Source: Streptomyces sp. CB00316 (lineage in GTDB: Bacteria > Actinomycetota > Actinomycetes > Streptomycetales > Streptomycetaceae). Taken from it: a stretch of 64,000 nt of DNA. Of the stretch, positions 1 through 14,600 are shown piece after piece. Each line of letters begins with the position of its first letter. The stretch's first letter is position 1. The stretch lies in NCBI RefSeq assembly GCF_001905595.1, contig NZ_LIXI01000002.1, positions 434,001-498,000 on the forward strand, written 5' to 3'. Under the pieces are notes generated by a model that saw only the letters and a list, made by a program, of their open reading frames with translations, ran no database searches and was not told the origin of the DNA. The translations under genes were made by a program, and so were the position numbers.

Positions 1-2
1 GG

Positions 3-296: not shown

Positions 297-317
297 CGCA
301 CCGGGGCCCTGATGACC

Positions 318-356
318 GACCGCCGGAGGGTACTGCTCCCCCCTCCTCCGGCGGTC
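318..356 (+). terminator. Hairpin terminator after the MFS gene
   Basis: A 12-bp perfect stem (GACCGCCGGAGG at 318-329 with CCTCCGGCGGTC at 345-356) encloses a 15-nt C-rich loop 22 bp after the MFS stop codon. No U-tract follows, as is common in Streptomyces. Confidence 0.6.
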
Positions 357-681
357 ACCCCCCGTCCCCGCTCCCACGTCGGGACACGGTCCCCGTACGC
401 CCTGCCCCGCTCCGCGCGGGCGCGTGTTCCTGATTTGTTGACACTTCACGCGTCAGGACCAACGTGGTGCTTCACCACTGGTGGAGCTCGTTTCCCGCCC
501 CGTGCGCCTCCTCCACGAGCCTCTCTCCCCGGACTGTTTCCGCAGGTAGGCGCGGGACCTGACGAAGTAGTCGGCCCACCCGGGAAACTTCCGTCCCGGA
601 CGGTATTTTCACCTCGTACTTCTGTTCCATGTATCCACTCGGGTGCAAGCGATATCAAGTATCGAGGGGAAGTAGCGTTAC
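357..681 (+). promoter_or_regulatory. Intergenic leader of the transposase-like gene
   Basis: No credible gene is seen. It has a consensus-like -35 TTGACA at 438-443 but no convincing -10 at 17-18 bp. Two small inverted repeats are present: CACCACTGGTG around 473-483, and CGATA/TATCG around 649-663 close to the ribosome binding site AGGGGAA. These may be binding sites for the two regulators encoded just downstream; that is inference. Confidence 0.35.
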
Positions 682-1902
682 ATGTCGTCAAGTGAGTTAC
701 GCGCGGTGGCGCCGGACAATGGCGCGTACATGCAGACGTTCATGGAAGATGTATTCCGGGCCTTCCAACGCCCCGAGCAGCGCCGTTGGGCCCAGGCCTA
801 TCTGTGGGCCCTGATCAACGTGTCGGGCAGGAAGACACCGCGCCGTATGGCACAGGCGAAGCCCCTGCCGTCGGCCGCCGCGCACGGCCTGCACCAGTTC
901 ATCAACGGCAGCCCCTGGGACTGGGTCCCGGTACGCCGCCGGCTCACCCAGTACGTGGCGGAGAACACCACCCCGAACGCATGGACCGTCGCCGAACTCA
1001 TCATCCCCAAGCGCGGCGAACACTCGGTGGGCGTGCACCAGCGCACCGATCCGATGACCGGACGCCGCCTCAACTGCCAGCGGGCTCTGATCTTCTTCCT
1101 CGTGTCGGGCACCCAGTGCTATCCGGTGGAGTGGAGCCTCATGCTCGGCGGGCCGTGGGTCTCGGACCGGGAGCGTAAACGCCGAGCCCGTATCCCCGGG
1201 TCGGAAGCGGGGCGCACCCCTGGCGACCATGTCGTCAGGTACGCCGCCGAGGCGGCTGTGCAGCCCCATCTCCCGCGTCTGCCCTGGGTGCTGGACCTCA
1301 CGCACTGCGACGACGCGGCCGGCGTCCTCGCGGGGCTCGCCCGGCTCAGGGCCGACGTGGTGTGCGAGGTCCACCCGAGTCAACTGGTACTCACCGGGCA
1401 GCAGTCACCCGCCCTGACCACGGTGGGCGCGCTGATGGAGGCGCGGCACGCGCGTCAGACGCATGTGCTGCTCCGGCAGCACCCCGGCGGCCGCGTCCAC
1501 CCCGTACCTGTCCACGCCTCCGTGGGCACGGTGGGGCCGCCGCGGCCAGGCAACGGCGACGACGGCTCGCGCCCGTACCGCATTCTGGAGAGACCCGACC
1601 CGGACGGCAGGCAGCCGCCCCGGTACTGGCTCACCACCGACCATCGGGTGGAGGAGGCCCTGCGCCTCGCGCGCAGTCACACCGCGGCCCTCTCCACCGT
1701 GGCCACGCTGCGGCAGCATTTCGGCGTACTCGACTTCGAGGGCCGCTCCTTCCCTGGCTGGCACCACCACATGACCATGGCCTCGGCCGCCTACATAAGC
1801 CAGCGCCTCGTCGGCCCGCCCTCCAGCTCCCCAGCATCGCCGGGGGCACCGTTCCGCGCATGGGCGCCACCTCCCGTCGCGCTCATCGGCGCCACGAACT
1901 GA
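682..1902 (+). CDS. IS701-type transposase-derived protein, catalytic residues lost
   Basis: 406 residues, full length for an IS701/DDE_5 transposase. The N-terminus matches the family (PEQRRWAQAYLWAL around 31-44, HGLHQFINGSPWDW around 68-81), as do GEHSVGV (112-118) and the C-terminal GVLDFEGRSFPGWHHH (348-363). However, the site where the family has the first catalytic DD reads VAELIIPK (A104-E105). The second Asp region reads VLDLTHCD (203-210). The region that normally holds the catalytic Glu (family DYEELK) reads TVATLRQ (339-345). No terminal inverted repeats or target duplications were seen. It starts at ATG with RBS AGGGGAA, and a response regulator begins 34 bp after it. It is most likely a domesticated DNA-binding protein rather than an active transposase. 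Confidence 0.7.
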   Translation: MSSSELRAVAPDNGAYMQTFMEDVFRAFQRPEQRRWAQAYLWALINVSGRKTPRRMAQAKPLPSAAAHGLHQFINGSPWDWVPVRRRLTQYVAENTTPNAWTVAELIIPKRGEHSVGVHQRTDPMTGRRLNCQRALIFFLVSGTQCYPVEWSLMLGGPWVSDRERKRRARIPGSEAGRTPGDHVVRYAAEAAVQPHLPRLPWVLDLTHCDDAAGVLAGLARLRADVVCEVHPSQLVLTGQQSPALTTVGALMEARHARQTHVLLRQHPGGRVHPVPVHASVGTVGPPRPGNGDDGSRPYRILERPDPDGRQPPRYWLTTDHRVEEALRLARSHTAALSTVATLRQHFGVLDFEGRSFPGWHHHMTMASAAYISQRLVGPPSSSPASPGAPFRAWAPPPVALIGATN

Positions 1903-1936
1903 TGTGGAACCCAGAAGAGAGAGCAAGGGGGAGCGC

Positions 1937-2626
1937 GTGAGACAGGTACTCGTGGTGGAGCAGGACTCCTCTGCCGCAGCGGCCATGGTGAGCGATCTGC
2001 GGCGGCAGGGGTTCACCGCCCGCAGTGTCTCCACAGGAGAGCGGGCGCTGCGGGTGTACCGCGAGATGGACTTGGTGCTGTTCTCCCTGGAACTGCCCGA
2101 TATCGACGGGTTGGAATTGTGTCGGGACCTGCGCAGCGGCGGGGACACGGCCCTGATAGCGATCACCGATTCCGACGCCGAACTGGAGCGCGTCCTCGTT
2201 CTCCACGCGGGCGCGGACGACTGTGTGGTGAAAAGCTGGGGATTCCGGGAAGTCGGAGCCCGTATCGAAGCGGTACTACGCCGGGCCCGACCCCGACAGG
2301 ACCTTCCGGGCGCCATTTCCCTGCGCCATCTCCATATAGATCCACGCCTGCGCGAAGTGCGACTGAGGGGCCGACCCGTCGGTGTCACGTCGAAGGAATT
2401 CGAGCTGCTCTACACCCTGGCCGCAACCCCGGAGACGGTCGTGACGCGCAAAGAGCTGATGGCCCGGGTCTGGGGCAGCGACTGGGGGCACACGAGCCGC
2501 ACGATCGACACGCATGTGAGCAGCCTGCGGGCGAAGCTCGGATCCAGCGGCTGGATCATCACCGTCCGGGGCGTCGGCTACCGCATGGGGTACGCCTGGC
2601 AGATGCCGGAGACGACCGCCGGCTGA
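1937..2626 (+). CDS. OmpR-type response regulator with Ser at the phospho-acceptor site
   Basis: 229 residues from GTG 1937, chosen because AAGGGGGA lies at the right spacing; an upstream GTG at 1904 has no ribosome binding site. The receiver domain spans about 3-118. A winged-helix Trans_reg_C domain spans about 130-220 and ends with RGVGYRM. Where family members read LLDLxLPDxDG, this one reads LFSLELPDIDG, so the phosphorylated Asp is Ser50. The Thr (AITD) and Lys (VVKSW) positions are kept. No histidine kinase is adjacent. It is therefore probably an orphan, phosphorylation-independent regulator, as is common in Streptomyces antibiotic clusters. It likely acts with the transposase-derived protein upstream on the neighbouring biosynthetic genes (inference). 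Confidence 0.8.
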   Translation: MRQVLVVEQDSSAAAAMVSDLRRQGFTARSVSTGERALRVYREMDLVLFSLELPDIDGLELCRDLRSGGDTALIAITDSDAELERVLVLHAGADDCVVKSWGFREVGARIEAVLRRARPRQDLPGAISLRHLHIDPRLREVRLRGRPVGVTSKEFELLYTLAATPETVVTRKELMARVWGSDWGHTSRTIDTHVSSLRAKLGSSGWIITVRGVGYRMGYAWQMPETTAG

Positions 2627-2735: not shown

Positions 2736-3491
2736 TCACACCGCCGCCGCCAGCCGCCGGAGCAGCGGGTGGTGCGCCTCCCCCTTCTCCCCCACCGCCC
2801 GCCGCGCCCACCAGGCCGACGCCAGGTTCGACGTGAGCAGCGTGCGGCGCGGCTCGCTGCGGGCCAGCTCGGTCACGGCCGCGAGCGTGCCCATCCCCGT
2901 CCCGGTGAAGAGGAGAGCCGTGTCGGCCGGCAGCTCCCGCTCCCGTATCCGCCGCAGGATGGCCCCGGTCGTCACCTCGTACGGGTCGAAGTGCGCTTCC
3001 TCGCCCGGGCGCACGGCCTCCTCCGCCGGGACGAGCACCACCCCGTCGACCGTGAGGCCGGCCCGCTCCCAGAAGGCGCGGGAGGTATCGGTGAGCCAGG
3101 GCTCGTACGGGGAGACGAGCGTCAGCCGCTGCACCCCGAGCGCCTCGCAAGCCGCGAGGATCGCCTGCGTGGAGGACTGCACGGGCGAACCGGCACGTTC
3201 GGACAGTTCGTCGCAGAAGGCCCGGTCGCCCTCCGGTTCCAGCAGGTAGTGCGACGCGCTGCACGCCACGACCGTGGCGTCCAGGCGCAGTGCGCCGAAA
3301 CTGCCGAGCAGCTCGGGGAGCACCTCGTTGTACGTCTCCAGCATCGCCCTCAGTCCGGCCCCGGGCGTCACCGGGAAACGGGAGGCGTACACATTCATTC
3401 CGAAGCCGAGCAGGTGGTTGAACTCGGGTTCCGCCGTCGGGTTTTCCGGCGGCACGACGACCCCCAGCCGGGGCAGTGAGAAGAGATCCAT
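2736..3491 (-). CDS. Maleate isomerase / Asp-Glu racemase superfamily protein
   Basis: 251 residues, the usual length for maleate cis-trans isomerase or arylmalonate-decarboxylase-type enzymes. It has the superfamily start LPRLGVVVPPENPTAEPEF and the first conserved cysteine in VVACSAS (C77). The second half normally has a Cys in an ISC motif; here it reads LLFTGTG (about 193-199), so the second catalytic Cys seems replaced by Thr196. The conserved SNxAxxW stretch follows at 221-228. There is no Shine-Dalgarno. A TACGGT box sits about 7 nt upstream of the ATG, so the transcript is probably leaderless. It is divergent from the AmCP operon and probably part of the same cluster. Its substrate, perhaps an unsaturated or malonate-like diacid, is unknown. 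Confidence 0.75.
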   Translation of the reverse strand: MDLFSLPRLGVVVPPENPTAEPEFNHLLGFGMNVYASRFPVTPGAGLRAMLETYNEVLPELLGSFGALRLDATVVACSASHYLLEPEGDRAFCDELSERAGSPVQSSTQAILAACEALGVQRLTLVSPYEPWLTDTSRAFWERAGLTVDGVVLVPAEEAVRPGEEAHFDPYEVTTGAILRRIRERELPADTALLFTGTGMGTLAAVTELARSEPRRTLLTSNLASAWWARRAVGEKGEAHHPLLRRLAAAV

Positions 3492-3717
3492 GGAAGTACC
3501 GTAGGGCGTACGTCACATCGACGGGCTTTCTGCGTCCCCTATTTGGCACGCTCGCACATCACCCTTGCACTTCCTTTCCTTCCTGACATTCCTTGACACT
3601 CCGCAACACAGCCCTGACTCGGCAGATATTGCTCTTCTCAGCCAGGCACCGAAGGATATGCATCAGCGAATGCGGCCCTGATCGCAGACCCCTTTCACGG
3701 AAAGAGGAGCAGAGGAA
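3492..3717. promoter_or_regulatory. Divergent promoter region of the AmCP cluster
   Basis: 226 bp between the maleate-isomerase-like gene and the AmCP operon. A TTGACA hexamer lies at 3593-3598 on the plus strand; a matching -10 is weak (TGACTC at 3615-3620, or AGATAT further down). A pyrimidine-rich TTCCTTTCCTTCC stretch precedes it. AGAGGA just before ATG 3718 is the ribosome binding site. Confidence 0.4.
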
Positions 3718-4872
3718 ATGGCAGCAGAAGGCCCCGAGAAACTGGAGAAGCCGCCCCATATATCGGACGCGACCCTGCGGGACTCCGCACATATGGCGGG
3801 GGTCGAATTCGGCCCCGAGGACGCCGCCGCCATCGCGGACTTGCTGGTGCGCACCGGCGTCGAGCTCGTCGAGGTGGGCATGGTCTCCGGGCCGGACTCC
3901 AAGGACGCCGACCTCGTCCTGGCCACCCACGAGGCGGTCACCCCCGAGCGCAGTATGACGCTGGTCGTCGTCCGCGACCGCCGCCAGGTCGCCCGCGCGC
4001 TGGACGAGGCCGAGCGCCTGGGCGTGCGGCACATCATGTACTCCATCCCGACCTCCGAGCAGCACGCGCAGCTGAAACTCGACTCGGCGAGCCCCAAGTT
4101 TCTCCAGGCGCTCGCACGGTCGGCGATCCAGCAGGCGAAGGAGCGCGGCTTCCACGTCACGTTCAGCGGTGAGGACGGCGCCCGCACACCCCGGGAGCGT
4201 CTCGTCCCCTATGTGGAGGCGGGGTTCGCGGCGGGGGCCGACCGGTTCCGGCTCGCGGAGACCGTGGCGTACCTCTCGCCCTGGCAGATGGAGGAGGTCA
4301 TCGCGGATATCACCGCGATCGACGGCTCCGAGATCGAGATCCACTCGCACAACATGCTGGGCATGGCCGTCGCCAACTCCCTGGCCGCCGTCCGGGCGGG
4401 GGCCCGGTGGATCTCCGCGACCGTCGGCGGGATCGGCGAGCGCGGCGGCAACGCGCCGCTGGCCGAACTGCTCACCTCGCTGCGGGTCATCCACGGCGAC
4501 ACCCGCTTCGACCTCACCCATCTCACCGAGCTCTCCCGGATCGCCCTGCGGGGCGCCGGTCTCGGGGAGGCCTTCCAGTCCGGGCCGACCACACCGCACG
4601 CTTTTGCGTACGAGCTGCCGGGCCAACTGAGCCACCCGCAGGCCTACGAGACACTTCCCGCCGAACTCGTCGGCAACAGACGCGAGTTGCGCGTGCGCAG
4701 CCGCCTCACCACGGCCCTGGTCAGCTGGGCCCTGGCCGACTCGGGACTGGAGGTGGACGTCGACGCCTTCACCCCGTGGCTGGCCGAGCGGCAGGAGCGG
4801 GACGGCCGCCCGCTGCTGGACCGGGACACGATCCGCAAGGCCGCAATCGACTTCCGCCCGGCGCCCGCGTAA
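3718..4872 (+). CDS. DRE-TIM metallolyase, homocitrate/isopropylmalate-synthase-like
   Basis: 384 residues, TIM-barrel acyl transferase/aldolase family. The N-terminal DATLRDSAHM motif (17-26) matches the DxTLRD signature. VTFSGEDGART (147-157) and GIGERGGNA (238-246) are family hallmarks. The metal site reads IHSHNMLGMAVAN (208-220): both His ligands (H209, H211) are present, but the usual HND is HNM, and RLAET replaces RLADT (178-182). Family members condense acetyl-CoA or similar with a 2-oxo acid, or cleave such products. As first gene of the operon it could build the carbon skeleton loaded on the carrier protein (inference). The LeuA regulatory domain is absent. Exact acceptor unknown. 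Confidence 0.75.
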   Translation: MAAEGPEKLEKPPHISDATLRDSAHMAGVEFGPEDAAAIADLLVRTGVELVEVGMVSGPDSKDADLVLATHEAVTPERSMTLVVVRDRRQVARALDEAERLGVRHIMYSIPTSEQHAQLKLDSASPKFLQALARSAIQQAKERGFHVTFSGEDGARTPRERLVPYVEAGFAAGADRFRLAETVAYLSPWQMEEVIADITAIDGSEIEIHSHNMLGMAVANSLAAVRAGARWISATVGGIGERGGNAPLAELLTSLRVIHGDTRFDLTHLTELSRIALRGAGLGEAFQSGPTTPHAFAYELPGQLSHPQAYETLPAELVGNRRELRVRSRLTTALVSWALADSGLEVDVDAFTPWLAERQERDGRPLLDRDTIRKAAIDFRPAPA

Positions 4873-4916
4873 CCCCTCGCACCGCGCAACCACCACACAC
4901 AGCAACGGAGTTCACG

Positions 4917-5102
4917 ATGTCCACCGCCACCCTGACCGGCGTATGCCCCGAGTGCGAGACCGACCTGACCGTCCCCCCGGTCACCCTGGGCGAGACGCTC
5001 TCCTGCCCCGAGTGCATCCTGACTCTCCGCGTCGAGGCCGTCGAGGACGGCCGGCTGACGCTCGAGATGGTCGAGGTGCAACTGCGCGACTGGGGCCAGT
5101 GA
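4917..5102 (+). CDS. lysW-like: LysW-type amino-group carrier protein with C-terminal Gln
   Basis: 61 residues, acidic. A zinc-ribbon of two knuckles, CPEC (10-13) and CPEC (30-33), matches LysW. The C-terminus reads RDWGQ where LysW and its relatives end EDWGE. In LysW the last Glu side chain is joined to the amino group of the substrate. Here codon CAG (5097-5099) places Gln last. It has a good RBS (CGGAG) and is followed one base later by the LysX-like ATG. LysW carriers serve lysine/arginine synthesis in Thermus and archaea. In Streptomyces, which makes lysine via diaminopimelate, such carriers mark specialised metabolism (e.g. vazabitide A and s56-p1 pathways). Gln may require deamidation before loading (inference). 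Confidence 0.9.
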   Translation: MSTATLTGVCPECETDLTVPPVTLGETLSCPECILTLRVEAVEDGRLTLEMVEVQLRDWGQ

Positions 5103-5103
5103 C

Positions 5104-5958
5104 ATGGACGCTCTCCGTCCCGTCGCCCTCGTCGCGGACCGTATCGCCTGGGAGGAACGCCTGCTCATCGAGACGGCCCCGACCTTCGGCCTCCGTATCG
5201 ACTGGGTCAACGACGAGTCCCTCTCCCTCGGCCACCCCGACGCCCCGGCGATCAAGGGGTACGACAGCCTCCTCGTCCGCAGCCGCAGCTACACCCGCGG
5301 CGGGCTGATCTCCAGCCTCGCCGAGGCGGCCGGCGTCCCCACGCTGAACACCGCCCGGGCCATCCACGCCTGCGAGAACAAGGCCGCCCTGCGCGCACTG
5401 CTCCAGACCGCGGGCGTACCCGTCCCGGACCACCGGCTCGTTCTCTCCCGCAAGGACTTCGACAAGGCTCTCGCGGACCTGCCCCTGCCCCTCGTCCTCA
5501 AGCCCGTCTTCGGCGGGATGGGCAAGCGGGTCACCCTGATCCGGCACGCCGACACCGCGCACTCCGTCTACGACTACATCGAGGACCTGGCCCACGCCTT
5601 CGAGCAGGCCAGCGTGGTGGAGCCCTACCTCGGCGGCAGCTCGGTGCGATGCCTGGTCGTCGGGCGGGAGCTGATCGGGGCCGCGGAGTTCGAGAGCGGC
5701 GGCAGCGACTGGCGCAACAACGCCGCCCTCGGCAACAGGAACCGCCCGGTAGCCCACGACCCCGACGTCCTGAAGATCGTCGGCGGTGTGGTGGATGTGC
5801 TCGGACCCGGCATCTACGGGGTCGACCTCTTCGCCACCCCCGACGGCTACGTCGTCAACGAGGTCAACCACGCCCCCGGCTTCCGAGCCGTGGCGTCCGC
5901 CACCGGAGCGGACATCCCCTCAGCCATATGCCGTTACGTGCAGGAGTTACTCGCATGA
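5104..5958 (+). CDS. lysX-like: LysX-like ATP-grasp ligase (amino acid to carrier protein)
   Basis: 284 residues, the length of LysX/ArgX. The ATP-grasp fold shows ENKAALR (91-97), LKPVFGGMGKRV (132-143), SDWRNNAALGNR (201-212, family DWRTN), and the Mg ligands D241, E253, N255 in GVDLF/VNEVN. LysX uses ATP to form an isopeptide between the carrier's terminal Glu side chain and the alpha-amino group of aminoadipate or glutamate. Here the substrate is unknown and the partner is the carrier one base upstream. The stop overlaps the next start (ATGA), indicating translational coupling. Confidence 0.88.
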   Translation: MDALRPVALVADRIAWEERLLIETAPTFGLRIDWVNDESLSLGHPDAPAIKGYDSLLVRSRSYTRGGLISSLAEAAGVPTLNTARAIHACENKAALRALLQTAGVPVPDHRLVLSRKDFDKALADLPLPLVLKPVFGGMGKRVTLIRHADTAHSVYDYIEDLAHAFEQASVVEPYLGGSSVRCLVVGRELIGAAEFESGGSDWRNNAALGNRNRPVAHDPDVLKIVGGVVDVLGPGIYGVDLFATPDGYVVNEVNHAPGFRAVASATGADIPSAICRYVQELLA

Positions 5959-7010
5959 TCCGTGCAGGAGTCGTCGGCGCCTCCGGGCTCGCCGGCGGCG
6001 AACTCATCCGCCTCATCACCCAGCACCCCGACCTGGAACTCACCTTCCTGGGCGGCTCCTCCAACATCGGCCGCCGCCCCTCCGAGCTCCACCCCGGCCT
6101 CCGCCTCGACCAGGGCCTGACCGTCCAGCCGGTCACCGACGACATCGTGGACAAGGTCGACGTCCTCTTCCTGGCCACCCCGGCGCCGGTATCGGCCGAG
6201 CTGTCCTCGCTGCTCGCCGACCGCATTCCGGCCATCGTCGACCTCAGCGGCGCGTTCCGCATCCGTACGCCGGAGCTGCACGACCGCTGGTACCCGAAGG
6301 TCAAGCGCCGCACCGACCTCGCGGACCGCTTCGTCTACGGCGTACCCGAGCTGATCGGTGACCAGCTGAAGGACGCCGCGCTCATCTCCCTGCCCGGCTG
6401 CTACGCCACCGCGATCACCCTGGGCCTGGCTCCGCTCGTCCTCGGCCTCGGGCTCGACCTGAAGACGGTGGTGGTGGACGGCAAGAGCGGGTCCAGCGGC
6501 GGCGGCATCCAGCTGCGCACCTCCGACCTGCACCCGTTCCGGGCCGGGGCCATCGCCCCGTACTCCCCGACCGGGCACCGGCACGCCGCCGAGGTCGGCG
6601 ACTTCCTGGAGCGGAGCAAGCCCGGGACTGTCGGGAACCTCTCCATGTCGGCGTACGGCGTCCCCAACGTACGCGGTTTGCTGACCAGTTCGTACGTGTT
6701 CACCGACGAGAAGGTGGACCAGCGAGAACTGAGCCGGGCCTTTCTGCGCTTCTACAAGGGGCGCCCGTTCGTCCGGGTGCGCCGACACAACGAGACGCTG
6801 ATCCCGGTGCCCGACCCCCAGGTCGTGCTCGGTTCCAACTACGCCGACGTGACGGTCCTGCTCGACGAGGAGGGCGGCCGGATCGTCGTACTCGCCGCGC
6901 TCGACAACCTGGTCAAGGGGGCCGCGGGCCAGGCCGTGCAGGTGACGAACCTGCGGTTCGGCCTGCCGGAGGAGACCGGGCTGACACAGCAGCCGGTGAT
7001 GCCGGCATGA
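5955..7010 (+). CDS. lysY-like: LysY/ArgC-like carrier-bound acyl-phosphate reductase
   Basis: 351 residues. NAD(P)-binding GVVGASGLAG (5-14), the catalytic-Cys motif LPGCYAT (C149) and a conserved His in SPTGHRH (204-210) match ArgC/LysY reductases. It would reduce the side-chain acyl phosphate of the carrier-bound amino acid to the semialdehyde. It starts inside the LysX stop and ends inside the LysZ start (both ATGA), so the three are coupled. ArgC of arginine biosynthesis is an alternative name, but the carrier context favours LysY. Confidence 0.88.
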   Translation: MIRAGVVGASGLAGGELIRLITQHPDLELTFLGGSSNIGRRPSELHPGLRLDQGLTVQPVTDDIVDKVDVLFLATPAPVSAELSSLLADRIPAIVDLSGAFRIRTPELHDRWYPKVKRRTDLADRFVYGVPELIGDQLKDAALISLPGCYATAITLGLAPLVLGLGLDLKTVVVDGKSGSSGGGIQLRTSDLHPFRAGAIAPYSPTGHRHAAEVGDFLERSKPGTVGNLSMSAYGVPNVRGLLTSSYVFTDEKVDQRELSRAFLRFYKGRPFVRVRRHNETLIPVPDPQVVLGSNYADVTVLLDEEGGRIVVLAALDNLVKGAAGQAVQVTNLRFGLPEETGLTQQPVMPA

Positions 7011-7846
7011 GCGCCGGGCGTTCCCTCTCCGGAGTTCCCACGGTGGTCAAGCTCGGCGGCAGCTGCCTCGACGACCTCGACGGCACCTGGTGGGACGACC
7101 TGGCCCGTCACGGCCAGGAGCGGCCTCTGGTCCTCGTCCACGGCTGGTCCAAGCCGCTCAAGAAGCTCGACGCCCGCCACAGCGAGCCGTCGGCGATCCT
7201 GCGCGACCGGTACGGCAACCAGAGCCGGTGGACCACACCCGAGGTCATCGACGACATCAGGACGGTCAGCGCCGTGCTGGCCGAAGACGTCCTCGCGCGG
7301 CTGGAGAGCCGTGGCATCACCGCGGAGCGGCTGCTCGGCAGCGACGGGCTGGTCAGTGCGGGCGAGAGTGAGCGCTGGTGGTGGCGGGAGAAGCAGCTCG
7401 TCGAGCTGGAGAACCTCGTCGGACCGATCACCGGGGTCGACCCGACCCCGCTGAAGAACCTCCGGCCGGGCCATGCCTACCTGGTCACCCCGCTCGCCCG
7501 GAACGAGGCGGGCCAGGAGGTCAACACCGACGCCGACCGGGCCGCCGCGGCGATCGCCGGGGCCACCGGCGCGACCGACCTGGTCCTGGTCACCGATGTC
7601 GGCCATCTGCTCATCGACGACGAGCCGGTACGCCGGATCAGCGCCGACGACGCGGCCGCCTTCCGTGACAAGGGGGCCCGGGGCGGCATGCGCAAGAAGC
7701 TGCGGGCCGCCGGCGAGGCCCTGGAGCACGGCGTCGATCGGGTCGTCATCGGCAGCGCCGCCGTCACCGAGCTGCTGGACGGCTCGACCGGCACGCTGAT
7801 CACGAAGGCTCCGGGCGGGGCCGATACGTCAGGAGCTGTCGCATGA
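7007..7846 (+). CDS. lysZ-like: LysZ/ArgB-like carrier-bound amino acid kinase
   Basis: 279 residues, amino acid kinase family. Phosphate-binding VVKLGGS (13-19), HGWSKPLK (46-53), and the nucleotide-site region VLVTDVGHL are visible, and the C-terminal part has the usual GGMRKKL stretch. It would phosphorylate the free side-chain carboxylate of the amino acid bound to the carrier, the step before LysY. It overlaps the preceding and following genes by 4 bp (ATGA). Confidence 0.87.
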   Translation: MSAGRSLSGVPTVVKLGGSCLDDLDGTWWDDLARHGQERPLVLVHGWSKPLKKLDARHSEPSAILRDRYGNQSRWTTPEVIDDIRTVSAVLAEDVLARLESRGITAERLLGSDGLVSAGESERWWWREKQLVELENLVGPITGVDPTPLKNLRPGHAYLVTPLARNEAGQEVNTDADRAAAAIAGATGATDLVLVTDVGHLLIDDEPVRRISADDAAAFRDKGARGGMRKKLRAAGEALEHGVDRVVIGSAAVTELLDGSTGTLITKAPGGADTSGAVA

Positions 7847-8406
7847 GTCGGTCCCGCGTCCTGGTCGTCAACAACGGCACGCTCTCACTCAAACAACTCC
7901 GCTCCCGCTTCGAGGTGTTGGGTTCGGATACGGAAGCGGTCGACGCTTCGTCCGTGCCCGCCCGGGTGGACGGCCGCTACCAGGCGATCGTGCTGAGCGG
8001 CACCAAGGTGCGCGCGTACGACAGCGAGTTCTACAAGCCCCTGATCGACCTGGTCACCACAGCGGACGTGCCGGTCTTCGGCATCTGCGGCGGGATGCAG
8101 ATCCTTGCTGTCGCGGCCGGCGGGCGCCTCGCGGAGGGGCCGCAGCGGGTCGGGGGCTACGAGGTGCAGGTGGACACGGGGGAGCCGCTCTTCACCTACG
8201 TGAAGCCGACGGTCACCGTCTTCCACCGGCACACCCTCTACCTCCAGGAGGCCCCGGCGGGCTACCACTCGATCGGCCGCTCCGAGCACGCGCCCGTGGA
8301 GTTCCTCCGCTCGGACGACGGCCGGATCCACGGCTCCCAGGCTCACCTGGAATTCCGGAAGGACGGCCTGGAGATCCTGCGGGGCTTCGCGCAGCTCTAC
8401 CAGTGA
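7843..8406 (+). CDS. Stand-alone class I glutamine-amidotransferase-like protein
   Basis: 187 residues with no synthetase partner domain. The nucleophile elbow GICGGMQ (C82) and the SQAHLEF motif (H168, E170) give an intact Cys-His-Glu triad. The fold hydrolyses gamma-glutamyl amides, normally glutamine to ammonia. Relatives such as PuuD hydrolyse gamma-glutamyl isopeptides. It is translationally coupled to LysZ. The carrier holds its cargo as a gamma-glutamyl amide, no M20-type LysK peptidase is in the cluster, and the carrier ends in Gln. This enzyme might therefore release the product, deamidate the carrier, or supply ammonia. All three are inference. Confidence 0.75.
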   Translation: MSRSRVLVVNNGTLSLKQLRSRFEVLGSDTEAVDASSVPARVDGRYQAIVLSGTKVRAYDSEFYKPLIDLVTTADVPVFGICGGMQILAVAAGGRLAEGPQRVGGYEVQVDTGEPLFTYVKPTVTVFHRHTLYLQEAPAGYHSIGRSEHAPVEFLRSDDGRIHGSQAHLEFRKDGLEILRGFAQLYQ

Positions 8407-8483
8407 CCCGAGCCCCTACGTACGCGAACCCACTCGACGTAGGCGCACCCCCTCACACCTTCGGACAGAACAAGGACTTCGCC

Positions 8484-9614
8484 ATGAGCACTCTGGAAGA
8501 ACCGCAGGACCCCGCCCTCACCGTCCACCTCAACGGCAGCGGCGGCGCCATCAAGGGATGGGTGGTCGTCGACACGCTCGTCGACGGCCTGGCGATGGGC
8601 GGCACCCGAATGACCACCGGGGTCACCGAGGAGGAAGTCGCGGGCCTGGCGCGGGACATGACCGAGAAGTTCACCCTGGCAGGGCTCCGCATCGGCGGCG
8701 CCAAGGCCGGGCTGGTCGCCGACGCCACGAACTCCGAAGGTCCTGACCGCGAGGAGACCTTCCGCACCTTCGGCCGCACGGTGAAGCCGCTCCTGCACGG
8801 CGGCATCCACCTCGGCATCGACATGGGCGTCACCCCCGCCGACCGGGCCGTCTTCTTCGAGGAGGCGAAGTACGACCCCCGCTACCGGCTCGGCGCCCCC
8901 GACATGCCGATCGACTGGCGTACGTACTACGAGCCCTTGATCGACGCCACCGGCCACGGGGTCGGGGTCGCCGCGATCACCGCCCTGGAGGCGAGCGGCC
9001 GCACCGAGCCCGCCCGGGTCGTCGTGCAGGGGTTCGGGGCGGTGGGCCGGGCGGTGGCACGGTTCCTGGAGGACCGGGGGCACATCGTCGTGGGCATCGC
9101 GGACATCCGGGGCACGATCAGCGCTGAGCGGCTGCCGGTGTCCGAACTGGTCGCCATGACCGACCAGTTCGGGGCCATCGACCGCACCCGGCTACCGCAG
9201 GGCGTCAAGCTCTCCGCCGAGCCGGACGCCTGGCTCGACGTGGACGCGGACATCCTGATCCTGGCGGCTCAGAAGTACGCGATCAACGCCGAGAACGCCC
9301 ACCGACTGCGGGCCGGCCTGGTCGTCGAGGGTGCCAACCTCGCCTCCAGTGCGGCGGCGAAGGAGAAGGTGGCCGCCTCGGGGGCCGGACTGGTCCCGGG
9401 CGTGATCGCCAACATCGGCGGCGCGGCCTCGGCGGCCCTGGCCGTCACCCGGGTCGTCCCGTTCGACCTGGAGGCGGAAGCCCGCAAGGCGTGGGTCTTC
9501 GACTGGGTCGGTGACCGGGTCCGGCAGAACACGCGCGACCTGCTGGAGATCGCGGCCTCGCGGGCGGGCGACCCGCTGCCCGAGCTGCTCGCGGCCCGCC
9601 GGAAGGAACGCTGA
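8484..9614 (+). CDS. Glu/Leu/Phe/Val dehydrogenase family protein
   Basis: 376 residues from ATG 8484 (RBS AAGGAC). The catalytic domain has MTEKF (K62), RIGGAKAGL (K74) and IDMG (D113). The Rossmann domain has QGFGAVGRA (182-190). The C-terminal VVEGAN and PGVIANIGGA stretches are typical of the family. Members interconvert 2-oxo acids and amino acids with NAD(P)H and ammonia. Located after the amidotransferase-like gene, it may aminate the oxo acid made by the first enzyme of the operon, perhaps with ammonia from its neighbour (inference). Confidence 0.82.
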   Translation: MSTLEEPQDPALTVHLNGSGGAIKGWVVVDTLVDGLAMGGTRMTTGVTEEEVAGLARDMTEKFTLAGLRIGGAKAGLVADATNSEGPDREETFRTFGRTVKPLLHGGIHLGIDMGVTPADRAVFFEEAKYDPRYRLGAPDMPIDWRTYYEPLIDATGHGVGVAAITALEASGRTEPARVVVQGFGAVGRAVARFLEDRGHIVVGIADIRGTISAERLPVSELVAMTDQFGAIDRTRLPQGVKLSAEPDAWLDVDADILILAAQKYAINAENAHRLRAGLVVEGANLASSAAAKEKVAASGAGLVPGVIANIGGAASAALAVTRVVPFDLEAEARKAWVFDWVGDRVRQNTRDLLEIAASRAGDPLPELLAARRKER

Positions 9615-11338
9615 TGCGTACGGCGGTCGGGAGCCCGCCGACCCCTGAAGCCTCGGCCGTCGTACCCGAAGGGCGCGCCGCCGAGTACCGCCGCCGGGGC
9701 TGGTGGCGGGAGCAGACCTTCCTCGACGACCTGCACCACCAGGCCCGGGAGCGCCCACGCCGGCTGGCCATCGCGGGCCGACGCGTGGCCGAGTCCCGTA
9801 CCGACACGCTCGACTACGCCGAACTGAACCGGCTGACCGACCGGTTCGCGCTGGCCCTGCTGGACCTGGGCGTCCGGCGAGGCGACTTCGTCGCCGTACA
9901 GCTGCCCAACCGGTGGGAGATGGTGCCGCTGATCTTCGCTTCCATCCGGATCGGCGCGGTCATCATCCCGATCTCGCCCATCTGCACGGAGGAGGAGCTG
10001 CGCCACCGCCTCGCCCTCACCGAAGCGCGGGTGTGCATCACGCTCCCCGAGTGGTCGGGCACCCCGCTGGCTGAGATCGCGTCCCGCTTGCTGGGTGAAC
10101 TGCGTTCTCTGAAACACGTGTTGGTGGTGGATGGCCCGCTGCCGGAGGGCACTCTCCCCTTTCACCAGCACTTCGTGGAGGCGAAACGGGAGGAGCAGGC
10201 GGGCGCCGCCGACCGGCTGGCCGGTCTGGCTCTCGGCGCGGACGACCCGTTCGTGGTGCTGTTCACCTCCGGCACCACCGGCCTGTCCAAGGGGGTCCTG
10301 CACAGCCAGAACACGGTGCACTCGGCCGTACGCGGGTACGTCGACGCGTTCGGAGCGGGCGAAGGCGGCGGCGGTGACGGCTGGGTGGTGGCGGTTTCCA
10401 CGCCGCTGGTGCACTACTCGGGCTTCGCGCAGGGTGTGCTGGCCGGCGTCATGCTGGGCGGCACGGTCGCCTTCCAGGACGTCCGCCGCAACGAGGCGTT
10501 GCTCGACCTGGTGGAGCGGTACGGCGCGACCCTGCTGTACGGGCCGCCCGCCACCCTCGCCGATGTGGTCGCCTCCCAACGGGCCGAGCGGCGGGACACC
10601 AGCACGCTGCGGCATGTGGTCATCGGCTCGGCGCCGGTCCTGAAGGAGCTGGCCGACGAGGTGCACGAGACGCTCGGCGCCCGCGCCCACTCCCTGTGGG
10701 GCATGTCGGAGAACGGCCCCGTGACCGTCACCCGGCCCGAGGACCCCACAGGATGGTCGGCACGGAGCAACGGCCGCGCGATCGATGCCATGGAGACTCG
10801 GATCGAGGCGTCGGAGGCGTACGGGACCCCGGGCGCCGAGGGCGCCGTGGGCCGGCTCAAGGTGCGCGGGGCGTCGCTCGCGTTGGGGTACCACCGGCGC
10901 CACGAGGCGTTCGCGGCCGAGCTGGACGAGGACGGCTGGTTCGACACCGGCGACCTCGCCCGGGACGACGGCCGGGGCGGCATCCGCATCATCGGCCGGG
11001 CCCGCGACGCGGTCCTGCGAGAGGGGCGGGTGGCGCCGATGACGGAGCTGGAGGCGGTGATCGGCAGCCACCCAAGGGCGGAGGAAGCCGCTCTGGTGGG
11101 TCTGGAAGCGACTGGCGGAGAGGGCCCCGGCAACGTGATCGTCGCCGTCGTGGTCCCACGCGACGGCCGGGGCCCCACGCTGGAGGAGGTCCGGGCCCGG
11201 GTCACGGAGGCGGGCCACGACGCCCGCTTCCTACCCGACCGGGTGGAGCTCGTCCCCGCCCTTCCGAAGACGCTGACCGGCAAGGTCCGCAAGGCCGAGC
11301 TGCGTGAGCGGTACGCCACGAGCACCACCCCCGCCTGA
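9614..11338 (+). CDS. AMP-forming acyl/aryl-CoA ligase (ANL superfamily)
   Basis: 574 residues. The P-loop LFTSGTTGLSKG (216-227), a YGPP region, WGMSENG, the hinge GRARDAVLREG and the terminal LPKTLTGKVRKAEL with the catalytic Lys are all present. It resembles cyclohexanecarboxylate-CoA-ligase-like enzymes more than NRPS adenylation domains, and no carrier domain follows. It would activate a carboxylate as adenylate and probably CoA thioester. It overlaps the previous stop by one base (TGATG). Confidence 0.82.
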   Translation: MRTAVGSPPTPEASAVVPEGRAAEYRRRGWWREQTFLDDLHHQARERPRRLAIAGRRVAESRTDTLDYAELNRLTDRFALALLDLGVRRGDFVAVQLPNRWEMVPLIFASIRIGAVIIPISPICTEEELRHRLALTEARVCITLPEWSGTPLAEIASRLLGELRSLKHVLVVDGPLPEGTLPFHQHFVEAKREEQAGAADRLAGLALGADDPFVVLFTSGTTGLSKGVLHSQNTVHSAVRGYVDAFGAGEGGGGDGWVVAVSTPLVHYSGFAQGVLAGVMLGGTVAFQDVRRNEALLDLVERYGATLLYGPPATLADVVASQRAERRDTSTLRHVVIGSAPVLKELADEVHETLGARAHSLWGMSENGPVTVTRPEDPTGWSARSNGRAIDAMETRIEASEAYGTPGAEGAVGRLKVRGASLALGYHRRHEAFAAELDEDGWFDTGDLARDDGRGGIRIIGRARDAVLREGRVAPMTELEAVIGSHPRAEEAALVGLEATGGEGPGNVIVAVVVPRDGRGPTLEEVRARVTEAGHDARFLPDRVELVPALPKTLTGKVRKAELRERYATSTTPA

Positions 11339-11379
11339 CCTCTGTCCACCCCCTCCACCCACCGAGCGCTGGAGCTGTG

Positions 11380-12687
11380 ATGCCCGAACCCACACCGGTC
11401 TCCATGTCGGCGACCCTGGCCGCCGACGAGGCCCTGGCCCGCCGGCGCCGGGCCGGGGAGCGGGTCATGTCGATGGCCAGCGGGGAGATCGGCCTGCCGG
11501 TCCTCCCCGCGCTCAGGGACCGGCTCGCGGCGGCGGCCGACGAGAACGCGTACGGCTCCGTCGCCGGGAGCCCCAGCCTGCGGACCGCCGTCGCCGGTTA
11601 CTGGGAGCGGCGCGGTCTGGACGTCGATCCGGGCCTCGTCGTGGCGGGTCCAGGCAGCAAGTCGCTGCTGTTCGCGCTGCTCCTGGCCATCGGCGGCGAC
11701 GTGATCGTGCCGGTGCCGAGCTGGGTGAGTTACGCCGCCCAGGCCCGGCTGGTCGGGGCGCGTCCCATCCCCGTACCGATCCTGCCGGGGCAGGGTGGGG
11801 TGCCCGATCCGGACCTGCTGCGCGAAGCGGTCGCCGACGCCCGGGCGGCCGGACAGCGCCCCCGGGCGGTGGTCGTGACCGTGCCGGACAACCCGACCGG
11901 CACGGTAGCCTCGGCCGCCACCGTACGACGGCTGGCGCAGGCGGCCCGCGAACTGGACCTCGTCATCGTCTCCGACGAGATCTACGGCGACCTGGTCTAC
12001 GACAGCTCCGAGCCTGCCGTCTCGCCGGCCCTGCACGCCCCCGAGCGGACCGTCGTCACCACCGGGCTCACCAAGAACCTGGCGCTCGGCGGCTGGCGCA
12101 CGGGCGTGACCCGGCTGCCCGACAGTGAGCTGGGACGCGCCCTGCACACCCGGCTCCTCGCGGTCGCCAGCCAGATCTGGTCGAGTCCGCCCGCGCCGGT
12201 GCAGACGGCGGCCGCGTACGCGTTCGGGGAGCCGCCGGAGGTCGTCGAGCGGGTCGCGGCGAGCCGACGGCTGCACGAGAAGGTGGTGCGCGCGGTCGCC
12301 GCCCGCTTCACCGCCGTGGGCGCCGGGCTCGCGCCCATCGCCGCGACCTGCTACCTCTACCCGGACTTCGAGCCCCTGCGCGAGCACCTGGCCGAAACCC
12401 ACGGCGTACACGGCGGCGACGGTCTGGCCGCGCTGCTCTCCGAGCGGTACGGGGTCGGCGTCCTGCCCGCCACCGCGTTCGGGGATGCCGCCCGCCCCCT
12501 GCGCATCCGTGCGGCGACCAGCCACTTCTACGGCGAGACCGCCGAGCAGCAGACCGCGGCACTGGAGGCGGCGGGGTCGGCGGATCCGCTCGCCCTGCCG
12601 TGGATACGGGAGTCGGTCGACCGGGTCGGTGAAGTCCTGGCCGACCTGACGTCGGCACCGGTCCCGGCTTCCGCCCCGCACGCCTGA
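11380..12687 (+). CDS. PLP-dependent class I/II aminotransferase
   Basis: 435 residues from ATG 11380 (RBS GGAG; a GTG lies immediately upstream). Fold-type-I motifs: DNPTGT (170-175), SDEIYGDLVYD (198-208), PLP-lysine in GLTKN (K232) followed by LGGWRTG (R240), and C-terminal LRIRA. In LysW pathways LysJ aminates the carrier-bound semialdehyde; this enzyme belongs to a different subgroup (AspC-like rather than LysJ/ArgD) but could do the equivalent step or aminate a free oxo acid. Confidence 0.8.
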   Translation: MPEPTPVSMSATLAADEALARRRRAGERVMSMASGEIGLPVLPALRDRLAAAADENAYGSVAGSPSLRTAVAGYWERRGLDVDPGLVVAGPGSKSLLFALLLAIGGDVIVPVPSWVSYAAQARLVGARPIPVPILPGQGGVPDPDLLREAVADARAAGQRPRAVVVTVPDNPTGTVASAATVRRLAQAARELDLVIVSDEIYGDLVYDSSEPAVSPALHAPERTVVTTGLTKNLALGGWRTGVTRLPDSELGRALHTRLLAVASQIWSSPPAPVQTAAAYAFGEPPEVVERVAASRRLHEKVVRAVAARFTAVGAGLAPIAATCYLYPDFEPLREHLAETHGVHGGDGLAALLSERYGVGVLPATAFGDAARPLRIRAATSHFYGETAEQQTAALEAAGSADPLALPWIRESVDRVGEVLADLTSAPVPASAPHA

Positions 12688-12734
12688 TGTCACCCCAACT
12701 CACCTACGCACCAACGACGTCATAGGAGTAATCG

Positions 12735-13673
12735 ATGCCCCACTCCCACCTCCCCGTCCTCTTCGAGGCGCTGTACCGGGGCGAACGCCACGTCGGCTTC
12801 GGCCACCCCGAGGAGGGCACGCCGCAGACCCTGTACCGGGTGGAGGACGGCCAGGTCGCCGCCGCCTTCATCGCCACCGACGGCTCGGAGGAGGCCCTGC
12901 GGGCCGCACTCACCGAGGGTGCGGCGACCGTCGTCGTCACGGCCGGTGACCCTGCACTCCGCCTGCTGCCGCCCCTCCTTCCGCAGGCCACGGGCAACGC
13001 CCTGCTGAGCGGCTTCATGGGCACGCACAAGAAGAAGTGGGGCGGCGAATCCGCTCCGGAGGACGGGGAGTTCACCCCGCCCAAGTGGTTCTTCAAGGGG
13101 TTCGGCGACTGGGTGAAGCTGCCTGGCGAGGACTTGGTCGTCCCGGCCCGACCGGTCGCCCTCATCGAGGAGCCCGAGATCGCCCTCGTCTACGTCAACG
13201 ACGCCGACGGCATCCCGCACTACGCCGGCTACACCTTCGGCAACGACCTGTGCGACATCGGCCTGCACCGCCAGGACCCGGGCTACAACCCGTACTGCAA
13301 GCTGTGCGACACCGCCCTCACCCCGTGGCTCTTCCTCGGCCCGCCGCCGCGTACGGTGACCGGCCGGGTCACCATCGTCCGGGACGCCGCGACGGCCTGG
13401 GAGGGCCCGTTCGACTGCGGCGACGACGCCCTCTACTACCGGATCCAGGACATGGCGGACCACCTGTTCACCTTCCCGGCGGTACGGCGGCCCGGGTTGG
13501 TCAACTACGTGCTCCTGGGCGCCGACGAGGCGAGCTTCCACGACGGGTTCCGGATCGCCGACGGCGATCGGATCGCCATCGACGTGAAGAGCCACGGGGT
13601 CACCTTCGAGAACCGCGTGCGCTACGTCTCCCCGGCCCCGTACACCACCCCGGCGCCCGTCGCCACGGCATGA
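12735..13673 (+). CDS. Fumarylacetoacetate hydrolase-fold protein
   Basis: 312 residues, RBS TAGGAG. The C-terminal two thirds match the FAH fold: metal ligands in IEEPEIALVY (E146, E148) and GYTFGNDLCD (D171). A cysteine-rich stretch (NPYCKLCDTA, 186-194) is unusual. FAH-fold enzymes hydrolyse C-C bonds, decarboxylate or hydrate oxo acids. It is the last gene of the apparent operon. The residues argue for a Mg-dependent enzyme, but substrate and reaction are unknown. Confidence 0.72.
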   Translation: MPHSHLPVLFEALYRGERHVGFGHPEEGTPQTLYRVEDGQVAAAFIATDGSEEALRAALTEGAATVVVTAGDPALRLLPPLLPQATGNALLSGFMGTHKKKWGGESAPEDGEFTPPKWFFKGFGDWVKLPGEDLVVPARPVALIEEPEIALVYVNDADGIPHYAGYTFGNDLCDIGLHRQDPGYNPYCKLCDTALTPWLFLGPPPRTVTGRVTIVRDAATAWEGPFDCGDDALYYRIQDMADHLFTFPAVRRPGLVNYVLLGADEASFHDGFRIADGDRIAIDVKSHGVTFENRVRYVSPAPYTTPAPVATA

Positions 13674-13802
13674 ACACCCCGTGAGGTGGAGCGGGTGACT
13701 GTGCTGACGCCATCCGGCACAGCCACGCTCTGAGATCCACCACCCCACCCGTCCCACCCCGCCGCCGCCGGACTACGCAGAAGGAGACCGCGAGACCGCA
13801 CC

Positions 13803-14600
13803 GTGCCCGCCACCACCAAGAAGCAGGTTCGTCTCGCAGCGCAGCTGCCCGGCATCCACCATGTGAGCGTCCGGTCGGACCCGCGCGCCGAGAGCCAGAC
13901 TGCCATCGACTCCTCCATCCGGCTCGCGCAGACCGTCGAACGCGGCAAGTTCGACTTCTTCTTCCTCGCCGAAGGGTTGCGGCTGCGCGAGCACAAGGGG
14001 CATGTCCACGACTTGGACGCCGCCTGAAGGCCGACACGGCGACGGGAGAGTTCGTCGCCGCCGGGGCCGGCCGCTTCGCCCACCGGGGACAGCACTTCGA
14101 CACCTCCGGCCGGTTCACCACCCCGCCAGGACCGCAGGGCCACCAAGCCCGGCGGCCTGGCGCGAGGAGGGCGCCCGGCCGGGTGAGCTCCTCGACGCCG
14201 CGTACACCGGCCGCGACACGGCGCGACGCCCACCGCGGACCTTCGCGGACCTCGTCGTCTTCCTGGACGACGAACCGGGCTCCGCCGCACGACGCGAGAC
14301 CCGCCTCGACGAGGCGGACGGAGCCGAACCGGCTTCGGACGCCGAGATCTTCGCCGGCACTCCCGCCGAACTGGCCGACCTTCTCCTCGACTGGCGCTCC
14401 ACCGGCCTGGACGGCTTCCGCCTCCGCCCGGGCACCCTGCCGCACGACCTCATGGGGATCGCCCGGGGCGCGGTCCCCAAGTTGCAGCGGCGCGGAGTGT
14501 TCCGTACGGAGTACGCGTCCACGACGCTGCGCGGCCACCTGGGGTTGGCACGGCCCGCGAGCCGCTACGCGAAGGCGGTTGACGCGCGGCGGAAGCGAGG
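13803..14600 (+). pseudogene. Decayed luciferase-like (NtaA/SnaA-type) monooxygenase
   Basis: Residues from 13803 match the start of FMN-dependent NtaA-type monooxygenases (KKQVRLAAQLPG, ERGKFDFFFLAEGLRLRE, then DLDA) and hit a stop at 14027. The same frame then continues with FVAAG and FAHRGQHFDTSGRF up to PQGH near 14150. The C-terminal part resumes in another frame (EIFAGTPAELADLL, RGVFRTEYASTTLRGHLGL). Internal deletions, a stop and a frameshift remove the active-site core. It sits between the AmCP operon and the convergent reductase. Confidence 0.75.

Follow-up and report, generated by a model that had tools for sequence, protein, structure and literature searches.

A glutamine-ended LysW-type carrier and an amidotransferase-like protein in a probable iso-maleimycin-type operon of Streptomyces

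The operon and its carrier protein

The window analysed here is a stretch of 64,000 nucleotides from Streptomyces sp. CB00316 (RefSeq assembly GCF_001905595.1, contig NZ_LIXI01000002.1, positions 434,001 to 498,000; G000:C12:434001-498000 in our numbering) with a GC content of 71.8%. It contains an operon of tightly packed genes on the forward strand, whose translated frames were scanned against Pfam and NCBIfam. The operon encodes a small LysW-like amino-group carrier protein (AmCP), LysX-, LysY- and LysZ-like enzymes, a DRE-TIM enzyme, a glutamine-amidotransferase-like protein (GAT), an amino acid dehydrogenase, an AMP ligase, a pyridoxal phosphate (PLP) enzyme and a FAH-fold protein (Table 1). 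All of these genes had been named in an original prediction made from the DNA alone, as had a divergent gene upstream, which was then called maleate-isomerase-like and is here found to be arylmalonate decarboxylase (Amdase)/EutA-like (3491..2736). The operon very probably belongs among the amino-group-carrier clusters of the iso-maleimycin/maleimycin type, to which it is matched by the description of a published cluster and by strain names. Its product is most likely a small bicyclic maleimide or a close relative.

The carrier has the two CxxC zinc knuckles (CPEC...CPEC) of LysW and ArgW. The characterised LysW and ArgW proteins end in EDWGE, and the substrate is joined to them via the gamma-carboxyl group of the terminal glutamate, as described in PMC10433800. 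The carrier of the window ends in RDWGQ and lacks this acceptor glutamate; the original prediction made no mention of its final glutamine. It also falls under both curated cut-offs, NF041070 (39.7 of 75 bits) and PF21344 (23.3 of 27 bits); the first of these is strict and is exceeded in none of 295 Streptomyces genomes. The zinc knuckles uphold the prediction of a LysW-type carrier, while the family scores and the C-terminus depart from it. From the open-licence literature and the main text of PMC12022981, supplements and subscription papers apart, the glutamine terminus and the role of GAT are apparently undescribed.

GAT has 187 amino acids, in which Cys82, His168 and Glu170 are invariant across 28 sequences. 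The AlphaFold model (pLDDT 93.9) has the class-I glutamine amidotransferase fold with a Cys-His-Glu triad. Comparison of the model with known structures by VIA-align places amidotransferase subunits of GMP synthase nearest (best Z 26), followed by Arabidopsis gamma-glutamyl peptidase 1 (GGP1, Z 21.8) and SpuA (Z 20.5).

Neighbouring genes overlap by ATGA at the LysX/LysY, LysY/LysZ and LysZ/GAT junctions, by GTGA between GAT and the dehydrogenase and by TGATG between the dehydrogenase and the ligase. The dehydrogenase has a GGAKAG motif. The frame of the PLP enzyme is called from a GTG at 11377, and an ATG follows at 11380. The last protein of the operon, of the GguC/AraD1 type, has the FAH fold in its model (pLDDT 89.8). 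The best Foldseek match of this model is 2-keto-3-deoxy-D-arabinonate dehydratase (E 1.3e-14), and a phmmer comparison of the protein with solved structures gave no meaningful match.

The cluster extends upstream of the window. Relative to window base 1, an MFS transporter gene lies at -909..263 (+), mostly outside the window, and a regulator which we take to be of the SARP type lies at -4924..-1781 (-). The DDE_5 protein is presumably IS701-transposase-like. Downstream of the operon is the internally deleted remnant of two luciferase-like monooxygenase genes. Both are intact beside the cluster in related loci such as L038 (numbers with L are our labels for loci), and the relative in L032 is Bac_luciferase (PF00296).

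Table 1. Features of the operon and its surroundings, in window coordinates
Feature	Coordinates	Strand	Evidence
MFS transporter, 3' end	1..296	+	tblastn 80% identity to a relative that is PF07690; match begins 909 bases before the window
DDE_5 endonuclease-family protein	682..1902	+	PF13546, 116.2 bits (cut-off 27)
Response regulator with Trans_reg_C domain	1904..2626	+	PF00072 and PF00486 above cut-off
Asp/Glu-racemase-superfamily protein, Amdase/EutA-like, divergent	2736..3491	-	PF17645, 39.6 bits (cut-off 25.9)
DRE-TIM (HMGL-like) enzyme, homocitrate/isopropylmalate-synthase-like	3718..4872	+	PF00682 above cut-off
LysW-like amino-group carrier, 61 aa, two CPEC knuckles, C-terminus LRDWGQ	4917..5102	+	
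LysX-like ATP-grasp ligase, GGMGK replacing GSWGR	5104..5958	+	
LysY/ArgC-like reductase	5955..7010	+	TIGR01850, 323.8 bits (cut-off 233.6)
LysZ/ArgB-like kinase	7007..7846	+	NF010659, 107.8 bits (cut-off 223); PF00696 above cut-off
GAT, single-domain class-I glutamine-amidotransferase-like protein	7843..8406	+	PF00117, 66.5 bits (cut-off 22.8)
Glu/Leu/Phe/Val (ELFV)-dehydrogenase family protein	8403..9614	+	PF00208 and PF02812 above cut-off
Acyl-AMP/CoA ligase	9614..11338	+	best NCBIfam TIGR03208, 329.1 bits (cut-off 792.3)
Fold-type I PLP enzyme, aminotransferase class I/II	11380..12687	+	best NCBIfam GntC cyclodehydratase, under cut-off
FAH-fold protein, GguC/AraD1 kind	12735..13673	+	NF040903, 129.8 bits (cut-off 340)
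Collapsed remnant of two luciferase-like monooxygenase genes	13800..14568	+	tblastn pieces

Related loci and family identity

LysX was used to scan named genomes; of the 50 loci obtained, 48 hold this cluster. The set of clusters of this kind used here, called Gln-type below, has 62 members: the loci L014-L061, L137, L145-L154, L178 and L179, and the window. They contain 59 distinct LysX DNA sequences; three pairs of loci share their LysX DNA, so some are one genome represented twice. Locus L247 comes from the same genome as L025 and was left out of the counts. Fifty-one of the 62 are full-length, with at least 2.5 kb before and at least 7.8 kb after LysX. The hosts belong to Streptomyces, Kitasatospora, Streptacidiphilus, Actinacidiphila, Lentzea, Kutzneria, Amycolatopsis, Saccharothrix, Actinopolyspora, Actinoplanes, Kribbella and Nocardia. 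GAT, and hence the cluster, is present in 13 of 295 Streptomyces genomes.

Six genes, those for the DRE-TIM enzyme, LysW, LysX, LysY, LysZ and GAT, are each found in all 51 full-length loci, and those for the dehydrogenase, AMP ligase, PLP enzyme and FAH-like protein in 50 each. This co-occurrence is far from chance. Accessory genes are less constant: the response regulator matches in 49 of the 51, the MFS transporter in 48, the Amdase-like gene in 42, the SARP regulator in 29 and a luciferase-like monooxygenase, whole or as a remnant, also in 29. The DDE_5 gene adjoins the cluster in 36, an unusual conservation for a transposase-like gene. Two loci, L031 and L035, keep the six core genes and lack the dehydrogenase, ligase, PLP and FAH genes at the locus; a genome-wide search for the dehydrogenase alone found none in the L031 genome and a partial 42% match in that of L035. 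A DapB gene stands directly before the six-gene core of L031 (L031:7845-8594, Streptomyces aurantiacus JA 4570). The labels M20, transketolase, MFS, response regulator, DapB and luciferase-like were each confirmed with Pfam on one protein.

The operon carrier is readable in 61 of the 62 Gln-type loci (L058 begins after it), and it ends in glutamine in 60 of them and in glutamate in one. The lone glutamate (codon GAG) is that of L051 from Actinopolyspora alba, a locus which retains GAT. One genome, G016, has two Gln-ended carriers, the operon copy (L246) and a second at L137:9977-10159, which adjoins PLP, MFS and FAH genes on the other strand.

A comparison set was taken from LysW-model searches of 295 Streptomyces genomes and 345 genomes at class level. 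The other actinobacterial LysW-type carriers found in this way all end in glutamate (55/55), 51 of them in DWGE and four in EEDFGE. The latter (L138, L139, L180 and L181) have EEDFGE instead of EEDWGE beside M20 and transketolase-like genes; they lie outside the search pattern and were read separately. Five further hits of the LysW model, L140-L144, contain neither a patterned carrier nor a LysX match and were left out of the counts; the reading frames of L140 and L141 are unrelated zinc ribbons. A phylum-wide search with a LysW-tail pattern matched one of 396 genomes, the window itself; with its thin sample and narrow pattern it is uninformative on absence.

The two sets differ in a second respect. 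M20 peptidases, the family of LysK, were sought with query proteins of PF01546 and are present, within the stretch read, in 46 of the 55 Glu-type loci (42 of 51 with DWGE, four of four with EEDFGE) and in none of the 51 full-length Gln-type loci. GAT is found in 61 of the 62 Gln-type loci, the exception (L060) being cut by a contig end, and at E<1e-15 in none of the 55 Glu-type loci, among which L101 gives a weak 27% match. The absence of LysK that had been predicted for the operon thus extends to its relatives, and LysJ is also absent from the operon. A PuuD-like C26 hydrolase, named by eye, is found near two Glu-type loci, L122 (4435 region) and L124 (L124:16126-16851), too few to interpret; the stretch of L122 that was read contains no M20.

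LysX differs between the sets as well. The GSWGR motif of LysX and ArgX recognises the EDWGE tail, as described in PMC10433800, and the 42 LysX proteins identified in the 51 Glu-type loci with DWGE all have GSWGR. Every Gln-type locus has GGMG[KR] instead (GGMGK in 59, GGMGR in three). In a maximum-likelihood tree of 116 LysX rows, 61 Gln-type rows lie on one side of a long branch with support of 100/100. The change of motif follows the clade and not strictly the terminal residue, since L051 has GGMG[KR] with a terminal glutamate, and Gln-ended carriers from Microgenomates, described below, accompany GSWGR. A WR[NS]N stretch and the residues A-V, G-V or A-L, placed by our alignment at the substrate-signature pair, are closer to those of glutamate-type ligases than to those of aminoadipate-type ones. 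Glutamate is therefore our first guess for the amino acid that LysX may load, with aspartate as the alternative.

The DRE-TIM enzyme had been called homocitrate-synthase-like. It is a DRE-TIM protein (PF00682), but its best curated match is NifV, at 203.1 of 462.9 bits, and it scores far under the cut-offs for homocitrate and isopropylmalate synthases. Where five relatives from lysine-type loci have HxAG[VI]H in their C-terminal region, five Gln-type rows have AYELPGQ or AYELAGQ. The histidines of HxAGxH have a role in the canonical enzymes. The window has TLRDSAH where the relatives from lysine-type loci have [TS]LR[DE]G.Q, and we take this motif to be like that of DmpG-type aldolases. The loss of HxAG[VI]H and the presence of TLRDSAH suggest an altered, perhaps aldolase-like, reaction. 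A DmpG-type aldolase was also sought in the genome of the host with TIGR03217, and nothing scored above cut-off. A true homocitrate synthase making aminoadipate was considered and rejected on the scores and the lost motif; an aminoadipate route is also disfavoured because no aconitase-like or isocitrate-dehydrogenase-like gene is recognised among the operon proteins.

The family can be named from a 2025 paper on Streptomyces sp. QL37. Biosynthetic gene cluster (BGC) 23a of this strain combines genes for a 2-isopropylmalate synthase, an orthologue of LysW and an AMP ligase with rimK; deletion of lysW and rimK abolishes iso-maleimycin, and BGC23 added to S. coelicolor M1152 together with the lug cluster gives iso-maleimycin and lugdunomycin (PMC12022981). 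The same paper likens BGC23a to the putative maleimycin BGC of S. showdoensis and reports 27 strains with a similar cluster, among which Streptomyces sp. SM11, S. filamentosus and S. shenzhenensis, besides QL37 and MBT70, also hold an angucycline cluster (PMC12022981). Three of these strain names match loci in our set (SM11, L047; S. filamentosus, L032; S. shenzhenensis, L044), each with the full gene set of the window. The Gln-type carrier is the sole LysW-family match in the SM11 and S. shenzhenensis genomes; that of S. filamentosus has an additional Glu-ended carrier (L242), outside the set of 55. None of the 42 Glu-type loci examined has a DRE-TIM gene of the window's family. The LysX of the window is 69-78% identical to those of L032, L044 and L047. 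The operon had been predicted to be uncharacterised and to hold a new enzyme set, and this part of the prediction is not borne out, as the genes correspond as a family to what is described for the iso-maleimycin BGC. A described cluster with the same genes and a known product very probably exists; the link is strong but indirect, QL37 having been compared by description and not by alignment. The cluster is thereby placed in a family with a published product, and a search for its product could start from a standard compound.

A possible role for the amidotransferase-like protein

Some actinobacterial Pup proteins are encoded with a C-terminal glutamine; Dop deamidates this residue before ligation through the gamma-carboxylate, and also removes Pup (PMC8599861). 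The AmCP of the window may be handled in a similar manner. We infer every reaction that follows from the gene content, its conservation, the glutamine terminus, the changed LysX motif and the lack of M20 at the loci. The carrier would be translated with its C-terminal glutamine, and GAT, with its amidotransferase fold, would hydrolyse the gamma-amide to give glutamate. This residue would then be coupled by LysX to an acidic amino acid, glutamate being the likeliest, at the alpha-amino group of the latter, and LysZ and LysY would produce a carrier-bound semialdehyde. The DRE-TIM enzyme could extend the semialdehyde to a seven-carbon hydroxy-dicarboxylate, from glutamate and acetyl-CoA or from aspartate and pyruvate. 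Finally GAT would cleave the gamma-glutamyl bond and release the product, replacing the missing LysK. A glutamine amide and a gamma-glutamyl isopeptide contain the same type of bond and are hydrolysed by the same reaction, so one enzyme could both prime and release. EgtC, GGP1 and SpuA are enzymes that cleave gamma-glutamyl amides. Deamination, activation, ring closure and dehydration would fall to the AMP ligase, the FAH-fold enzyme and either the dehydrogenase or the PLP enzyme, with ammonia incorporated as an imide.

The exact carbon route is doubtful. We take the maleimycins to have a skeleton of seven carbons, consisting of a cyclopentene and two carboxyl carbons linked into an imide, and to carry a single hydroxyl group. 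Carrier-bound glutamate semialdehyde and a two-carbon unit would give a 2-amino-5-hydroxy-C7-dicarboxylate; the maleimycin pattern would follow if the amine were oxidised to a ketone, the AMP ligase activated the far carboxyl group, the ring closed from C2 to C6 and water were eliminated. Aspartate semialdehyde and pyruvate would instead give a 4-hydroxy-6-oxo C7 acid and the iso-maleimycin pattern. On this second route the carrier would keep the amine from closing to a DapA-type ring, and one further reduction would be needed to reach the oxidation level of the product. The DapB gene of L031 fits the aspartate route, as a single case. The nearest match of the FAH-fold protein, 2-keto-3-deoxy-D-arabinonate dehydratase, acts on a 4-hydroxy-2-oxo acid.

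Among the carriers that were read, glutamine ends are confined to two lineages, the actinobacterial Gln-type clusters and Candidatus Microgenomates. Of 233 genomes of the latter class, 39 have matches to the LysW model; 17 stretches were fetched, 12 of which hold a carrier and Lys genes, and with L062 these make up the 13 loci counted below (L062 and L214-L225). Omitted are L226-L229, without the Lys genes sought, and L230, a 3.4-kb contig which has a Glu-ended carrier and none of those genes. Locus L062, another result of the LysX scan, encodes LysW, X, Y, Z and J, then a protein of 227 amino acids, then a class-I lysyl-tRNA synthetase (PF01921). Its carrier ends in EEDWGQ. No M20 is present at this locus or at any other of the 13. 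The only family match of the 227-residue protein is EgtC (TIGR03442), and an EgtC-like gene follows LysJ in all 11 Microgenomates loci that continue past it (L062, L214, L217, L218, L220-L225 and L248). Lysine needs no ammonia donor, and these loci are for this reason the main support for an amidotransferase-like protein in the role of LysK; the EgtC-like protein is itself a candidate lysine-release enzyme. The canonical Chloroflexi locus L063 has a Glu-ended carrier and an M20 gene.

We propose, tentatively and at something short of even confidence, that the carrier is Pup-like, made with a terminal glutamine and activated by deamidation, that one amidotransferase-fold enzyme primes and unloads it in place of the LysK metallopeptidase, and that two unrelated amidotransferase-like proteins, one of class I in actinobacteria and one weakly EgtC-like in Microgenomates, independently took over the LysK step. 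For its central part, that GAT converts the carrier glutamine to glutamate, releases the product, or both, as Dop does for Pup, the chances appear evenly balanced. This estimate was lowered slightly because both Gln-ended Microgenomates carriers accompany an unchanged LysX motif. The persistence of GAT beside the carrier genes in L031 and L035, where the downstream genes are missing from the locus, argues for an action of GAT on the carrier.

Several observations weigh against the proposal. In sequence and in structure GAT is closest to the GMP-synthase amidotransferase subunits, which supply ammonia, and not to hydrolases, and the expected maleimide product presumably needs an imide nitrogen. 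The Glu-ended L051 keeps both GAT and GGMG[KR], which argues against priming as the only job of GAT. The Gln-ended Microgenomates loci L062 and L219 keep an ordinary GSWGR LysX, so the change of motif is not needed for a glutamine end. All Gln-type LysX proteins form one clade on one long branch; the actinobacterial association of glutamine and GAT is thus a single evolutionary event, not dozens of independent cases. Nine of the 55 Glu-type loci have neither M20 nor GAT, although three of these (L107, L118 and L119) are cut by contig ends. The Microgenomates carriers end mostly in glutamate (11/13, with glutamine in L062 and L219), and L219 stops before the position of the EgtC-like gene. The match to EgtC is weak (E 2.4e-8, 33.6 of 218.65 bits), with no match of the protein in Pfam or among solved structures. 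Some M20 gene is present elsewhere in eight of the 13 Microgenomates genomes; none was found genome-wide in the two with Gln-ended carriers, whose completeness is not told by this search.

The closest rival takes GAT as an ordinary amidotransferase that passes ammonia from free glutamine to the AMP ligase or another partner for the imide nitrogen, and leaves the priming of the carrier glutamine to spontaneous deamidation or an unlinked enzyme. We regard this as possible, though it falls short of probable. It agrees with the nearest relatives of GAT and with the imide nitrogen that we take iso-maleimycin to contain. GAT has a single domain, and the AMP ligase is a candidate synthetase partner which accompanies it in 50 of the 51 full-length loci; however, GAT is kept without the ligase at L031 and L035 (the search for the ligase covered the loci themselves). 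An ammonia donor also leaves the release step and the conserved glutamine unexplained, and the Microgenomates loci without LysK, which look lysine-making (PF01921 adjoins in L062), carry an amidotransferase-like gene although lysine needs no amidation. In another reading the alpha-carboxylate of the terminal glutamine is the site at which LysX attaches the substrate, or LysX uses the glutamine form in some other way, without deamidation. The altered tail-reading motif in all 62 loci is consistent with this, and other members of the LysX family make C-terminal alpha-linkages of the RimK type. We consider it improbable, as L051 has glutamate with the same type of LysX and no carboxypeptidase-like gene for release is recognised in the core, where M20 alone was searched for.

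Two further explanations concern the product rather than GAT. The operon could share the architecture of the iso-maleimycin BGC and make another end product, such as maleimycin, a nitrosporeusine-like derivative or an unrelated amino acid. The divergence of LysX from the three named strains, the variable monooxygenase and Amdase-like genes and the two loci with the six core genes alone point in this direction, but the core gene set of the window is identical to those of L032, L044 and L047; such a product, which is compatible with the other explanations, seems rather unlikely. A supply of primary lysine or arginine was rejected as next to impossible. LysX, LysY and LysZ are homologous to enzymes of those pathways, but ArgJ and DapA, both scoring over their curated cut-offs, are encoded at other places in the host genome, and the operon is therefore not required for primary arginine and lysine. 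The cluster is also confined to a small share of Streptomyces genomes and has neither LysJ nor LysK. The original prediction of specialised metabolism through a carrier protein agrees with these findings.

If the proposal on GAT is true, it describes an apparently unstudied mechanism by which amino-group carriers are primed and unloaded, explains AmCP pathways without LysK and links two distant lineages. A Gln-ended carrier with an amidotransferase-like gene would then be an easy bioinformatic rule for finding maleimide-type clusters, and the same comparison yields the candidate lysine-release enzyme for Microgenomates.

Comparison with known systems

The operon shares with the LysW/ArgW pathways to lysine and arginine in Thermus and archaea a zinc-ribbon carrier, LysX, LysY and LysZ. 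It differs from them in having RDWGQ in place of EDWGE and GGMGK in place of GSWGR, and an amidotransferase-like enzyme instead of LysJ and LysK.

The vazabitide A, s56-p1 and azinomycin-type AmCP clusters (DADH) provide a carrier-bound amino acid in the specialised metabolism of Streptomyces, as the window would. We presume that our Glu-type loci belong with these clusters. They have a Glu end, mostly M20, transketolase-like halves in about half of the loci (24 and 22 of 42, one half confirmed with Pfam) and a nonribosomal peptide synthetase-like family in 20 of 42, none of which is present in the operon of the window.

The nearest known system is the iso-maleimycin BGC, which has an isopropylmalate-synthase-like gene, LysW, RimK/LysX and an AMP ligase together, as in the window. 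None of the words glutamine, amidotransferase and aminotransferase occurs in the main text of PMC12022981, which appears to give no enzymatic route to iso-maleimycin.

GGP1, SpuA and EgtC have an amidotransferase fold, as does GAT, and act on different substrates. EgtC is a class-II enzyme, and it resembles only the Microgenomates protein, weakly. Dop is glutamine-synthetase-like and GAT is a class-I amidotransferase by family and by fold. The two are not homologous; the likeness between the Pup system and the carrier of the window would lie in their working.

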